From NCBI RefSeq assembly GCF_002160915.1, contig NZ_NFLM01000007.1:62001-126000 (forward strand): 64,000 nt of DNA, in the 5' to 3' direction. The stretch's first letter is position 1; each line of letters opens with the position of its first letter. Under the pieces are notes generated by a model that saw nothing but the letters and a program-made list of their open reading frames with translations, was not told the origin of the DNA and made no database searches. Shown piece by piece: positions 4,902 to 52,663 of the stretch. This DNA is from Faecalibacterium sp. An121 (GTDB taxonomy: Bacteria; Bacillota; Clostridia; Oscillospirales; Ruminococcaceae). Both the position numbers and the translations under genes were made by a program.

Positions 4902-4930
4902 ATAATAGCATCCGCCCCCCTGCATTGCAA
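4902..4930 (-). promoter_or_regulatory. Promoter of the threonine operon, inside an inverted repeat
   Basis: On the minus strand TTGCAA (4930-4925) and TATTAT (4907-4902) are 17 bases apart. The spacer and -35 are bracketed by a perfect inverted repeat, GCATCCG at 4908-4914 and CGGATGC at 4936-4942, which could be an operator. Confidence 0.65.
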
Positions 4931-7770: not shown

Positions 7771-7833
7771 CATACTAGGGTGTATCTGAGAAGTCCAAAC
7801 ATACTGCGATGTCCGCCAAAGGATGCGGATACA
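7771..7833 (+). promoter_or_regulatory. Copy B of the recurrent structured 5' leader, with its -10 element
   Basis: CATACT (7771-7776) is a plausible -10. TGTATCTG (7781-7788) can pair with CGGATACA (7826-7833), eight pairs including one U-G. A second, competing pairing TCCGC/GCGGA uses the same 3' arm. From 7781 to about 7817 the sequence closely matches the leader of ktrB at 17111 onward. Confidence 0.5.
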
Positions 7834-7887
7834 GGGCGGGACGGAACAGTGCTTTGGGATCTTCTACCCCGAAAGGAGCCCGGCTTT

Positions 7888-8274
7888 ATGCGCAAACTCT
7901 GGTATTGTATCTTTTATGGCCTGTGTGCCTTCACCATCGTGTTCAGCCTGTATTGGATCGCCGCCATGCCGCCCCGGAACAGCCAGGGCAGTTCGAGCGC
8001 CCCGGGCAGCAGGGACGCGGACAGCCCGGCCCTGCGGGCAGGCAACTCCCTGTCCGGCGTCCGGGAAGAGCCCGCCGGCTATTACCTCTGCGACGAGGGG
8101 GGCCGGCTGGCGGTATACAGCTGCACCGCCGACGGGGTGCCCCGCCAGCGTCTGGAGCTGACCGATATCTATATCAACCTGCTGCCCGAACAGGACGCTT
8201 TGCAGTTCAAAGCCGGCTATCTGGTCTGGGACCGGCAGGAACTGGAGACCCTTCTGGAGGATCTGGGCGCCTGA
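7888..8274 (+). CDS. BofC-like C-terminal domain protein, membrane-anchored
   Basis: A 128-aa protein with one N-terminal membrane segment (about residues 5-27), a low-complexity Ser/Gly linker, and a compact C-terminal domain of about 65 residues containing YYLCDEGGRLAVYSC and TDIYINLLPEQD. This pattern resembles the C-terminal domain of BofC-type proteins found in many clostridia next to cell-envelope genes; the classical BofC tunes a sporulation protease, but this protein is shorter and its role is unknown. The start is chosen because GAAAGGAG lies nine bases upstream. It is a single-gene unit behind the recurrent leader. Confidence 0.7.
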   Translation: MRKLWYCIFYGLCAFTIVFSLYWIAAMPPRNSQGSSSAPGSRDADSPALRAGNSLSGVREEPAGYYLCDEGGRLAVYSCTADGVPRQRLELTDIYINLLPEQDALQFKAGYLVWDRQELETLLEDLGA

Positions 8275-14142: not shown

Positions 14143-14268
14143 GTCGGGCACTCTTCGCTTTTGTGTTCGCCCTCACCATGCACCGGGGTGTATCCGAAAA
14201 ACCACAGGTTCCATACGACGCCGGTGGTTTGGAAGACGCCCTATACCGTTAGGAGGAGAAAACCTAGA

Positions 14269-16917
<2,649 letters not shown>

Positions 16918-16996: not shown

Positions 16997-17101
16997 GCTC
17001 CTGCGCATTTTTTGCGCAATTTGTGTGGAAAAGGAAAATATTTCAAGTCCATTTTGTGTAAAAAATGCGAAATACCCCCTTTTCTTTTTCCTATTTCCTG
17101 T

Positions 17102-17227
17102 TATACTAATGTGTATCTGAGAAGTCAAAAATGTTGAGATATCCGCCCCGGAGGCGCCAGCTGCGGACAGCAGCACGGCAGGGAGCGTCCCGGTCAGGAT
17201 GGAACGGCATCGCGGCGGTCAGATACA
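17102..17227 (+). promoter_or_regulatory. Copy C of the recurrent structured 5' leader, upstream of ktrB
   Basis: TATACT (17102-17107) is the -10. TGTATCTGA (17112-17120) is perfectly complementary to TCAGATACA (17219-17227), closing a domain of about 115 bases. An inner TCCGC/GCGGA pairing is shared with copy B. Downstream, a hairpin GCAGCCC/GGGCTGC (17308-17326) lies just before the ktrB ribosome site. Control of a potassium channel gene suggests a signal such as c-di-AMP or K+, but the known ydaO consensus is absent. Confidence 0.55.
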
Positions 17228-17349
17228 GGACATCTGGATGGCTGGCGGCACATCCTTGCCGGGGGCGCCGCACAGGGCATCCAGTCCCACCTCTGGTCTT
17301 ACTGGCAGCAGCCCATCCCGGGCTGCCGCACCACAAGCAAGGAGATCTT

Positions 17350-18648
17350 ATGTTCGACTTTATCAAAAAGCAGTCGCCGGTGCGGGTCATTGCCCTTGGC
17401 TTTGCACTGGTGATCCTGCTGGGGTCGGTGCTGCTGATCATGCCCTTCAGCGTACAGGAAGGGGCTGTAGTCCACTACATCGACACCCTCTACACCTCCA
17501 CCAGCGCGGTCTGCGTCACCGGTCTGATCGCCATCGATGCGGGAGACAATTTCACCTTCATCGGGCAGTTCATCCTGGCGGCGCTGATCCAGATCGGCGG
17601 CCTGGGCGTCACTTCGGTGGGCGCGGGCATCATCCTGGTCATGGGCCGCAAGATCAATCTGAAGGAGCGCAGCGTCCTGCAGGAAGCCCTCAACCTGGAC
17701 TCCGCCCAGGGCATCCTGCGCTTCCTCAAGCGGATCTTCCTGATGACCCTCTGCTTTGAAGGGGTGGGCGCAGCCCTCAGCTTCATTGTCTTTGTGCAGG
17801 ACTATCCGCCCCTGCGGGCCCTGTGGATCAGCATTTTCCACTCGGTGGCAGCCTTCAACAACTCGGGTTTTGATATCCTGGGCAATTATCAGAACCTCAT
17901 CCCCTACCGGGACAACGTGATGCTCAATCTGATCACCTGCGGGCTGATCATCTTTGGCGGCATCGGTTTCCTGGTCATCCAGGATGTGCTGCACAACCGC
18001 TTCCACTGGAAGAAATTCTCGATGCACACCAAAGTGGTCATTACGGTCAGCGCCATCCTCATCGTGGTAGGCGCCGTACTGCTCAAACTGACCGAGAACA
18101 TCACCTGGCTGGCTGCTTTCTTCCACAGCGTGTCGGCCCGTACCGCAGGCTTCTCCACCTATCCCCTGGCCGAGTTCAACAGCGCCGGCCTGCTTGTGCT
18201 GATCGTGCTGATGTTCATCGGCGCTTCCCCCGGATCCACCGGCGGCGGTATCAAGACAAGCACCTTCTTCGTGCTGCTGCAGGGCATCAAGTCGGCCGCC
18301 ACCAACCGGGGCGAAAAAGCCTTCCACTACGCGGTGCCCTCGGGCGCCTTCCGCAAGGCAGCGGTCATCACCCTGCTGGCTCTGTCGGTGGTGCTCACCG
18401 GCACCTGGCTGATGATGGTGTTCGAGCCCCAGCTGCGGCTGGTGGACGCCCTGTTCGAGATGACCAGCGCCTTCGGCACCGTGGGTCTGTCCACCGGCAT
18501 CACCACCGGGCTGGGCATCCCCGCAAAGCTGATCTCGATCCTTACCATGTACATTGGCCGCCTTGGCCCTCTGACCATCGCTTCTGTCTGGTATTTTGAC
18601 AAGGGCGAGCGGATCAGTTACCCCGAAGGCAACATCGCCATCGGCTGA
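17350..18648 (+). CDS. ktrB: TrkH/KtrB family potassium transporter subunit
   Basis: The membrane subunit of a K+ uptake system. The 432-aa protein has four membrane-pore-membrane repeats with the selectivity-filter glycines visible in SAVCVTGLI, NNSGFDIL, ARTAGFST and FGTVGLSTG. Length fits KtrB rather than the longer TrkH. The ATG at 17350 follows AAGGAGATCTT. The gating subunit ktrA follows after 14 bases. Expression is probably controlled through the long leader at 17102-17340. Confidence 0.93.
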   Translation: MFDFIKKQSPVRVIALGFALVILLGSVLLIMPFSVQEGAVVHYIDTLYTSTSAVCVTGLIAIDAGDNFTFIGQFILAALIQIGGLGVTSVGAGIILVMGRKINLKERSVLQEALNLDSAQGILRFLKRIFLMTLCFEGVGAALSFIVFVQDYPPLRALWISIFHSVAAFNNSGFDILGNYQNLIPYRDNVMLNLITCGLIIFGGIGFLVIQDVLHNRFHWKKFSMHTKVVITVSAILIVVGAVLLKLTENITWLAAFFHSVSARTAGFSTYPLAEFNSAGLLVLIVLMFIGASPGSTGGGIKTSTFFVLLQGIKSAATNRGEKAFHYAVPSGAFRKAAVITLLALSVVLTGTWLMMVFEPQLRLVDALFEMTSAFGTVGLSTGITTGLGIPAKLISILTMYIGRLGPLTIASVWYFDKGERISYPEGNIAIG

Positions 18649-31956: not shown

Positions 31957-32031
31957 GCGGGTATAGTACATCGGCTAGTATAACAGCCTTCCAAGCTGTG
32001 GAGGTCGGTTCGATTCCGATTACCCGCTCCA
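31957..32031 (+). tRNA. tRNA-Gly (anticodon TCC)
   Basis: A 75-base cloverleaf: acceptor GCGGGTA with TACCCGC, anticodon stem ACAGC/GCTGT with loop CTTCCAA (anticodon TCC at 31990-31992), T-arm GTCGG-TTCGATT-CCGAT, discriminator T and an encoded CCA end. Own promoter and terminator. Confidence 0.97.
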
Positions 32032-51917: not shown

Positions 51918-52382
51918 ATGGCACGCAGCAGTTACAATACCCGCACCCGCCAGCTGATCCTGGACTATCTGAGGGCCAACCCCAGCCGGGCGGTGAGCGC
52001 CGCCGACATCGTGGCCTATCTGGAAGCCGCAGGCGCGCCCGCCAACCCCACCACCGTCTACCGCTATCTGGACAAGCTGGCCGCCGACCAGCAGGTGATG
52101 AAATATGTGGCGGACAAGGGCGAACGGGCCCTGTACCAGTACACCGACCAGCAGCGCCACTGCCGCGAGCACATCCACCTGAAGTGCACCCGCTGCGGCG
52201 AGATCTTCCATATGGACTGCGGCTTTATGGCCGAGGTGCGCCGGCACCTGCTGGAGGAGCACGGTTTTACCCTGCAGTGCGAGGGCAGCGTCCTGTACGG
52301 GCTGTGCCGGCGGTGCGCCGCCGGCTCCGAGGTTGACAGCGGCGTCGAGCCGTGCTACAATAACACCCAACAAAAGCTTTGA
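51918..52382 (+). CDS. Fur family metal/peroxide-responsive repressor
   Basis: A 154-aa regulator with an N-terminal winged helix (RQLILDYLRANPSRAVSAAD and NPTTVYRYLDKLAA) and a C-terminal dimerisation domain with HCREHIHLKCTRCGEIFH-type metal residues: a CxxC (CTRC) and a second CxxC (CRRC) that make the structural zinc site. Whether it senses iron, zinc or peroxide cannot be decided. Its last codons contain the promoter for the asnB T-box. Confidence 0.92.
   Translation: MARSSYNTRTRQLILDYLRANPSRAVSAADIVAYLEAAGAPANPTTVYRYLDKLAADQQVMKYVADKGERALYQYTDQQRHCREHIHLKCTRCGEIFHMDCGFMAEVRRHLLEEHGFTLQCEGSVLYGLCRRCAAGSEVDSGVEPCYNNTQQKL
52333..52361 (+). promoter_or_regulatory. asnB promoter, inside the 3' end of the Fur-family gene
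   Basis: Consensus TTGACA (52333-52338), 17-base spacer, TACAAT (52356-52361). Confidence 0.85.
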
Positions 52383-52663
52383 CCGGGAAAAGTAGGGCCC
52401 ACAGGCCGTCCCTTGGCAGAGAGCGCGGGCAAGGTGCAAGCCGCGCGGGGGGCCGGGCCGCGAAGAACACCCGTGAGCTTCCGCCTGAACCCGCCTGGCA
52501 ACAGCGGCAGTAGGGCCGGACGGCAGCCGCACGTTACGCGGCGGCGCTTTCAACGAGGAAAGCCATGAGCGGCTGGCAGGAGCCTTTCTGCCGGCAACAC
52601 AGGTGGCACCACGGATACGGCAGCATTCGTCCTGAAACAGGATGTTTGCTGCCGTATTTTTTT
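52368..52663 (+). promoter_or_regulatory. T-box leader, asparagine-specific
   Basis: Stem I has the AGTA bulge (GGGAAAAGTA), the apical AGAGAGC and GGTGCAAGCC elements, and a specifier loop GAAGAACAC in which AAC (52466-52468) is the Asn codon. The antiterminator carries the T-box sequence AGGTGGCACCACGG (52601-52614); its UGGC bulge fits a tRNA ending in GCCA, as tRNA-Asn does. The competing terminator is ATACGGCAGCA (52615-52625) with TGCTGCCGTAT (52647-52657) and a run of T. Uncharged tRNA-Asn should allow read-through into asnB. Confidence 0.95.

Follow-up and report, generated by a model that had tools for sequence, protein, structure and literature searches.

The window analysed here, a stretch of 64,000 nucleotides of Faecalibacterium sp. 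An121 DNA, carries a short repeat immediately behind the −10 boxes of some of its genes. We conclude with high confidence that this repeat is a MITE that occupies −10 boxes of some Faecalibacterium genes, inserts at a YTAR target with TA on both sides, and is probably mobilised in trans by a transposase of the IS5 family (IS427-like), and that it is not a new riboswitch family. Terminal repeats, dispersed copies, empty sites and an insertion sequence with the same ends identify the element as a MITE, so that it is a new family of a known kind. The element, its ends, target, likely parent, empty sites and hairpin can all be read from the genomes compared, and the shared ends make the IS5-family (IS427-like) transposase the probable mover. 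The initial annotation had described the repeat as an RNA leader family answering a common osmotic or cell-wall signal; the inverted repeats, the YTAR flanks, the genes opposed to the repeat, its absence from orthologous promoters and the ends of the insertion sequence all contradict that reading.

The repeat in the window and across the genus

The exact 10-mer GTATCTGAGA occurs three times in the window, at 823–832 (− strand), 7782–7791 (+) and 17113–17122 (+), each time with a −10-like hexamer directly before it (TATACT at 843–838 on the minus strand, CATACT at 7771–7776 and TATACT at 17102–17107, respectively). The initial annotation had recognised this box behind −10 elements at exactly these three places, giving positions one too low for the plus-strand copies and one base too few for the minus-strand copy. 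With up to one mismatch allowed, the three window matches compare with 1.05 expected, and 9 of 100 shuffles reach three, so the window alone is weak proof of a repeat.

Across the genome of An121 (2.71 Mb, 62 contigs), the pattern TATCTGAGA matches at 21 places and its reversed form at 3; a small number of the 21 (e.g., L011, L012 and L016) clearly have nothing to do with the repeat. The longer repeat found at such places starts with TAGGGTGTATCTGAGAAGTCAAACATGCTGAGATATTCGCC and ends in the inverted copy TTTTCAGATACACCCTA. Its end, TAGGGTGTATCTGARAA, occurs 48 times in this genome with up to three mismatches, the reversed control giving a single match. The element is non-coding and interspersed, measures approximately 166 bp, and has imperfect terminal inverted repeats of ~17 bp (TAGGGTGTATCTGARAA). 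In the loci examined we distinguished 39 two-ended elements of 70–279 bp, and 31 of these measure 150–180 bp; the An121 genome holds 13 of the 39 (70 to 279 bp), including six of 166–168 bp. The 31 near-full-length copies from the genus, i.e., those of 150–180 bp among 39 elements all chosen for having both ends, share a mean identity of 93% over 169 alignment columns. Judged by size, the two-ended elements leave no room for a transposase gene.

A longer variant of 279 bp was observed at L015:1494–1772 and L094:1239–1517, and also in L204 from position 4921; its inner GC-rich sequence reads ...TTGCGCTTAGC...GCGAAAACCGGAGCGC... in L015 and is similar in L204. The copies in L002 and L009 are seemingly truncated near the same point. 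Four further loci (L082, L084, L090 and L099) hold sequences that begin with GGGTGTATCTGAGAA and then diverge, and these may represent solo ends or other non-autonomous types.

Related genomes do contain additional copies, as the initial annotation had required of an RNA family. The exact 14-mer GGTGTATCTGAGAA is present in 8 of the 31 genomes of the genus, a count that mixes MITE and insertion sequence because the same 14-mer also ends some insertion sequence copies. A two-ended MITE was read in seven of these eight (G000, G003, G006, G010, G016, G023 and G025); the single match in G022 proved to be a different sequence. A 23-mer of the element retrieved 22 stretches from public contigs, every title naming Faecalibacterium (own-genome records were possibly left out); among them were Cand. 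F. gallistercoris, Cand. F. intestinigallinarum and two uncultured. A literature search, with subscription papers mostly outside its coverage, found no description of such elements in Faecalibacterium and none of IS5 with F. prausnitzii.

A family profile built from the 31 copies (nhmmer) matches the window at 17111–17164 (E = 3.4e-9, 54 bases; copy C) and at 7776–7838 (E = 7.5e-8, 63 bases; copy B), the best value on the reversed window being E = 7.9. At the remaining box, copy A, the profile finds no match at E ≤ 10. The kinship proposed for the three leaders holds for B and C, including the bases they share downstream of the box, and finds no support for copy A at the VanY-like gene, which we did not accept as a proven member. 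Aligned with full-length copies, B and C resemble both halves of the element and carry internal deletions; they are insertions that were shortened and mutated afterwards.

Copy C (17107–17232, +) is a decayed element with both inverted-repeat arms, as seen in the profile match, the alignment and the fold, and its 3′ TA is not preserved. It sits at the TA of the ktrB −10 box (TATACT, 17102–17107, +), whose last T starts the target TA. Its 3′ arm, TCAGATACA, which the initial annotation had taken for the pairing partner of the box, lies at 17219–17227 (+) by alignment and fold. The ktrB-like gene follows at 17350–18648 (+) and belongs to the TrkH family of K+ transport (PF02386, E = 1.8e-47), with a TIGR00933 score of 311 bits that lies under the cut-off of 331.15. 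Copy B (7776–7866, +), supported by its profile match and by empty sites, is an internally deleted element between two TA, with a damaged 3′ repeat. It starts at the TA of the −10 box CATACT (7771–7776, +), found as CATACTA in eight relatives, of a 128-aa gene at 7888–8274 (+). This gene, named BofC-like in the initial annotation, has matches in all 31 genomes of the genus but hits neither a Pfam nor an NCBIfam family at E ≤ 0.001. Copy A (823–837, −) is a lone GTATCTGAGA that follows TATACTA in the register an element end would have. It adjoins the −10 box TATACT (838–843, −; TTTACA at 866–861, spacer 17) of a gene for a VanY-like carboxypeptidase, the first 240 codons of which lie at 3–722 (−; PF02557, E = 4.6e-19). 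Elsewhere in the window, CGGGGTGTATCCGAAAA at 14184–14207, immediately upstream of the predicted gene at 14269, looks like an end of the element with three mismatches and reaches only E 4–5 with the profile.

Probable parent insertion sequence, target and empty sites

A complete insertion sequence with the same ends as the MITE (TAGGGTGCATCTGAAAAGTC and TAGGGCGTATCTGAAAACGC) is present in genome G010 (locus L229). It measures 890 bp including both TA and contains two open reading frames, orfA and orfB, that overlap in different frames. The orfB product matches the IS5_3 family NF033580 with 144.9 bits (cut-off 110; E = 3.1e-42) as well as PF01609 and PF13586; that of orfA scores 108.9 bits with NF033580 (E = 3e-31, just below the cut-off) and matches PF13340. 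G016 has 10 places, each at the end of a contig, where the same end is followed by other sequence encoding the C-terminal part of a transposase, and further incomplete copies of this kind stand at contig ends in G006 and G025. At ≥80% identity, the transposase was detected in 4 of the 31 genomes, all within the seven that have a two-ended MITE. The chance of four out of four falling among 7 of 31 is 35/31465 (~0.001, calculated by hand), a figure that has to be read with the fact that insertion sequence copies bearing the same 14-mer helped to select G016. The An121 genome holds no close transposase copy (best match 35%), and movement there is therefore either past or dependent on an unassembled copy.

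An IS630/Tc1-mariner origin, our first guess from the TA target, was discarded: the sole DDE_3 element of the An121 genome (L109, C1:247856–248281), of IS630 type with two frames, has other ends (near TAGAGCAAACCC) and is unrelated to the repeat, and the matching ends turned up in an IS5-family element. DDE_3 occurs in 7 of the 31 genomes, and the element end in two of those seven (G000 and G016); the DDE_3 ends compared were those of L109.

The insertion target was read from element ends with at most two mismatches (99 among 106 found, counting both ends of elements and including insertion sequence ends). In 95 of these 99, C or T stands directly before the TA. Among the 39 two-ended copies, a pyrimidine precedes the left TA in 38 and a purine follows the right TA in 38, and TA is intact at both sides in 25. 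These flanks point to YTAR as the target, with duplication of the TA.

Empty sites were found at several promoters. At the gene starting at 7888, CATACTA and GAAAGGAGCCC are separated by 93 bases in An121 versus 5–6 in eight relatives; the TA pair that flanks copy B could itself be due to chance. The same promoter seems to hold a different copy of its own, at the same TA, in Cand. F. gallistercoris, where the near element end stands in L204 adjacent to an orthologue, at 87% identity, of the upstream gene, and the far end in L147 (G006) beside the downstream gene. This second insertion is split across two contigs, taken to be of the same genome, and ~100 bases past its far end are unexplained. 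Among 13 loci read at the VanY-like promoter, G010 has a full-length element, An121 has just the 10-mer, and 11 have neither; the G010 element lies in reverse orientation exactly behind GGTATACTA. At the tRNA-Leu promoter, TAGACTA or a sequence close to it is separated from GCGGGAGTGG by 46 bases in An121, beginning with GGGTGTATCTGAGAA, and by 11–14 bases in eight relatives (L247–L254). Finally, TATACTAGAGTGTATCTGAGAA at locus L021, next to a gene that we take to be YfhO-like, is found only in An121 among 13 loci read. The inserts at the tRNA-Leu and YfhO-like genes comprise one element end only. Orthologous promoters of relatives thus lack the element, and the conserved position expected of a cis-regulatory RNA is not seen.

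The ktrB promoter gives no clean empty site, because the 3′ TA of copy C is lost and the native leader of the relatives cannot be aligned across the copy. Six relatives (G003, G006, G010, G016, G021 and G023) keep the promoter sequence TATACTATG but have a different leader, and G005 and G009 have a different promoter. The native leader of the six (L111:1390–1446, L112:2852–2910(−), L113:1868–1926(−), L114:2850–2908(−), L115:1390–1446 and L118:1387–1445) has a conserved form, GGGG...GTCAGTTTYYTGAACAAA...CCCCAG, in which 3 of 16 predicted pairs are changed on both sides among only six sequences. L111 and L113 have no Rfam match at the gathering thresholds. It could be a real structured leader, and was not recognised in the An121 genome.

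Promoters, leaders and the hairpin

The TA of YTAR is available in −10 boxes that read NATACTA, which places some copies exactly at the 3′ end of such a box. Insertion at the last T preserves the promoter and may for this reason be tolerated, and the −10 boxes may simply be some of the intergenic YTAR sites available. By a loose rule, 11 of the 99 ends stand behind a −10-like hexamer, compared with 14 of 155 intergenic YTA sites in the window and 55 of 668 in L200–L221, loci chosen because they carry the element; intergenic sequence was delimited in both by a rough gene caller. Since these counts are alike, there is no clear excess of element ends at −10 boxes.

Landing behind −10 boxes might nevertheless be an evolved strategy of the element and not a by-product of YTAR, a possibility that we entertain tentatively and consider doubtful. 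It is favoured by the stricter hexamers, ATACTA preceding 8 of 99 ends versus 18 of 823 intergenic YTA sites (Fisher p = 0.004) and TATACTA 5 of 99 versus 14 of 823 (p = 0.044), although both rules were chosen post hoc. The promoter of the gene at 7888 has seemingly been struck in two species and the VanY-like promoter in one or two, and E. coli IS5 is described as favouring intergenic, AT-rich, stress-destabilised DNA (PMC11677980). The agreement under the loose rule between element ends and both sets of background sites argues against such a preference.

In the simple YTAR reading, the native −10 box is retained and the element's inverted repeat would supply the first transcribed bases, with transcription predicted to start within GGGTGTATCTGA behind TATACTA. 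Messages of genes with an element at the −10 box thus probably begin with element sequence. Copy A is at best a remnant and otherwise a coincidence: its exact register behind TATACTA and the full element at this very TA in G010 speak for a remnant, whereas similar native leaders in G021 and G023 (TAATCTGCGAGCTCC and TAGTCTGCGAGCTCT) speak against it.

That the box is instead a shared operator, i.e., a transcription factor site in the DNA just behind −10 boxes, is very improbable. Only ~10–19 bp are recognisable at the tRNA-Leu (L003), YfhO-like (L021) and VanY-like (copy A) genes, in the same register to the −10 box, as this explanation would have it; yet identical bases end both the 166-bp element and an insertion sequence, the tRNA-Leu insert is missing from the eight relatives, and even the loose rule finds a −10 box before so few of the ends.

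Folded as RNA, a full element (L010) forms one hairpin of −84.8 kcal/mol (z = −11.1). Across the 31 copies, 9 of 60 pairs are changed on both sides (29 cells), a number reached by none of 500 shuffles, with slid controls giving 0–3 pairs; these compensatory pairs were counted on element copies wherever located, not on leaders. All 39 elements were required to have both ends, a selection that favours pairing of the end repeats and less so of the interior. The compensation itself can come from selection on RNA, from selection on a DNA hairpin or from conversion between the arms. In all 31 copies, the sense strand (5′ arm ...CTGAGAA) folds more stably than the antisense strand (means −89.5 and −72.5). 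Among 56 register pairs, G-U occurs in 17 (129 cells) and A-C in 5 (7 cells). When only minority states are counted, in columns where a standard pair is commonest (by hand), the comparison becomes 12 versus 4 columns and is not decisive. This asymmetry is suggestive of a strand-specific role and not proof of one, because the copies share ancestry; shared ancestry together with strand-biased C-to-T change could be its source.

At the leaders themselves, the hairpin is kept in the predicted fold of copy C (z = −3.06) and absent from those of copies B (z = −0.29) and A (z = −0.70). The nine base pairs reported earlier at ktrB are real in both sequence and predicted fold (17112–17120 with 17219–17227), and are the pairing of the element's two inverted repeats. 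The corresponding pairings described for copy B (7826–7833) and copy A (740–747) can be written down and do not appear in the folds. The change from U-G to U-A that had been read as keeping a pair between copies B and C compares unrelated bases, since the partner in copy B lies in the element interior and not at the position of the partner in copy C.

The absence of a fit to known RNA classes noted in the initial annotation was borne out: Rfam gives no match at 17000–17350 even at E ≤ 1. This distinguishes the leader from the ydaO/c-di-AMP and other K+ gene riboswitches, which also stand upstream of ktr genes in Firmicutes. In the whole window, the only Rfam matches at the gathering thresholds are a T-box and a tRNA (31957–32028). 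The T-box leader (52370–52637, +) scores 93.7 against a threshold of 93 bits and is barely over it.

Copies in relatives, compensatory pairing across family members and the lack of an Rfam match are thus what we found, and none of the three outcomes that the initial annotation had named as telling against an RNA family occurred. Together with the three boxes behind promoters in the window, these observations are what favours a cis-regulatory RNA family, riboswitch or protein-sensing leader, that responds to a common signal at K+ and envelope genes. We regard this explanation too as highly improbable. The empty sites already refute it as an account of origin, and the inverted repeats also speak against it. 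By rough gene calls, 2 of the 21 TATCTGAGA places of the An121 genome fall within predicted genes. Of the remaining 19, 10 have a right-hand gene that runs in the direction of the repeat, 8 have one that runs against it and 1 has none called; six lie between two genes both opposed to it. The VanY-like promoter of G010 holds the element in reverse, and copy B has lost the fold. The case shows that an inverted-repeat mobile element behind promoters can mimic a structured, co-varying leader and pass the usual tests of copies, covariation and Rfam.

As a MITE in the 5′-UTR, the element would be likely, by analogy with Correia elements, to alter mRNA stability or translation through its hairpin, with no ligand-sensing switch involved. 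In a stronger version, what persists is an RNA hairpin specific to one strand and not merely a DNA palindrome, its arms showing compensatory changes and many more G-U than A-C pairs, so that after landing at a −10 box the element would supply a functional 5′ leader, of an RNase III type or protecting the mRNA, and act as a reusable promoter-leader cassette spread by transposition. We consider this version unlikely.

Relation to known mobile elements and repeats

The putative parent resembles the IS427 group of the IS5 family. According to the tabulated features of that group (PMC3281130), its elements measure 832–865 bp, produce a 2-bp duplication in all those shown but one and in some cases have two overlapping frames. 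L229 agrees with the group in its inverted repeats, in the TA found at either end and in its pair of overlapping frames; its 890 bp lie slightly above the range. For the E. coli IS5 itself, PMC11677980 reports a duplicated target of 4 bp, related in form, along with the preference for intergenic, AT-rich and destabilised DNA mentioned above. The element of the window differs from the IS5 family and the IS427 group in lacking a transposase and has only the terminal ~20 bp in common with the insertion sequence, which would move it in trans.

RUP, BOX, REP and other small bacterial repeats resemble the element in being short, palindromic and dispersed between genes. Repeats of this kind are named in PMC10969869. 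The closest likeness is to the Correia repeat enclosed elements (CREE) of Neisseria, described as MITEs of ~70–157 bp with inverted repeats and often a TA target, present in ~120–250 copies per genome and forming an mRNA hairpin (PMC2649163, PMC10969869). The nearest worked-out case is a CREE of N. meningitidis that lies between the native mtrCDE promoter and its genes and whose mRNA is cut by RNase III (PMC2649163, PMC10969869). The Faecalibacterium element shares with CREE the small size, inverted repeats, TA target and a hairpin, here predicted for the mRNA; it differs in sequence and host and in having a likely IS5-family parent with the same ends. CREE often bring promoter parts of their own, whereas here the insert begins with the final base of the −10 box. 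The element can be seen as a counterpart, in a gut commensal, to the Correia elements, one whose probable parent insertion sequence was found. Close relatives carry the same promoters with and without the element, which offers a means to gauge the effect of a +1 hairpin on ktrB, the tRNA-Leu gene and others.
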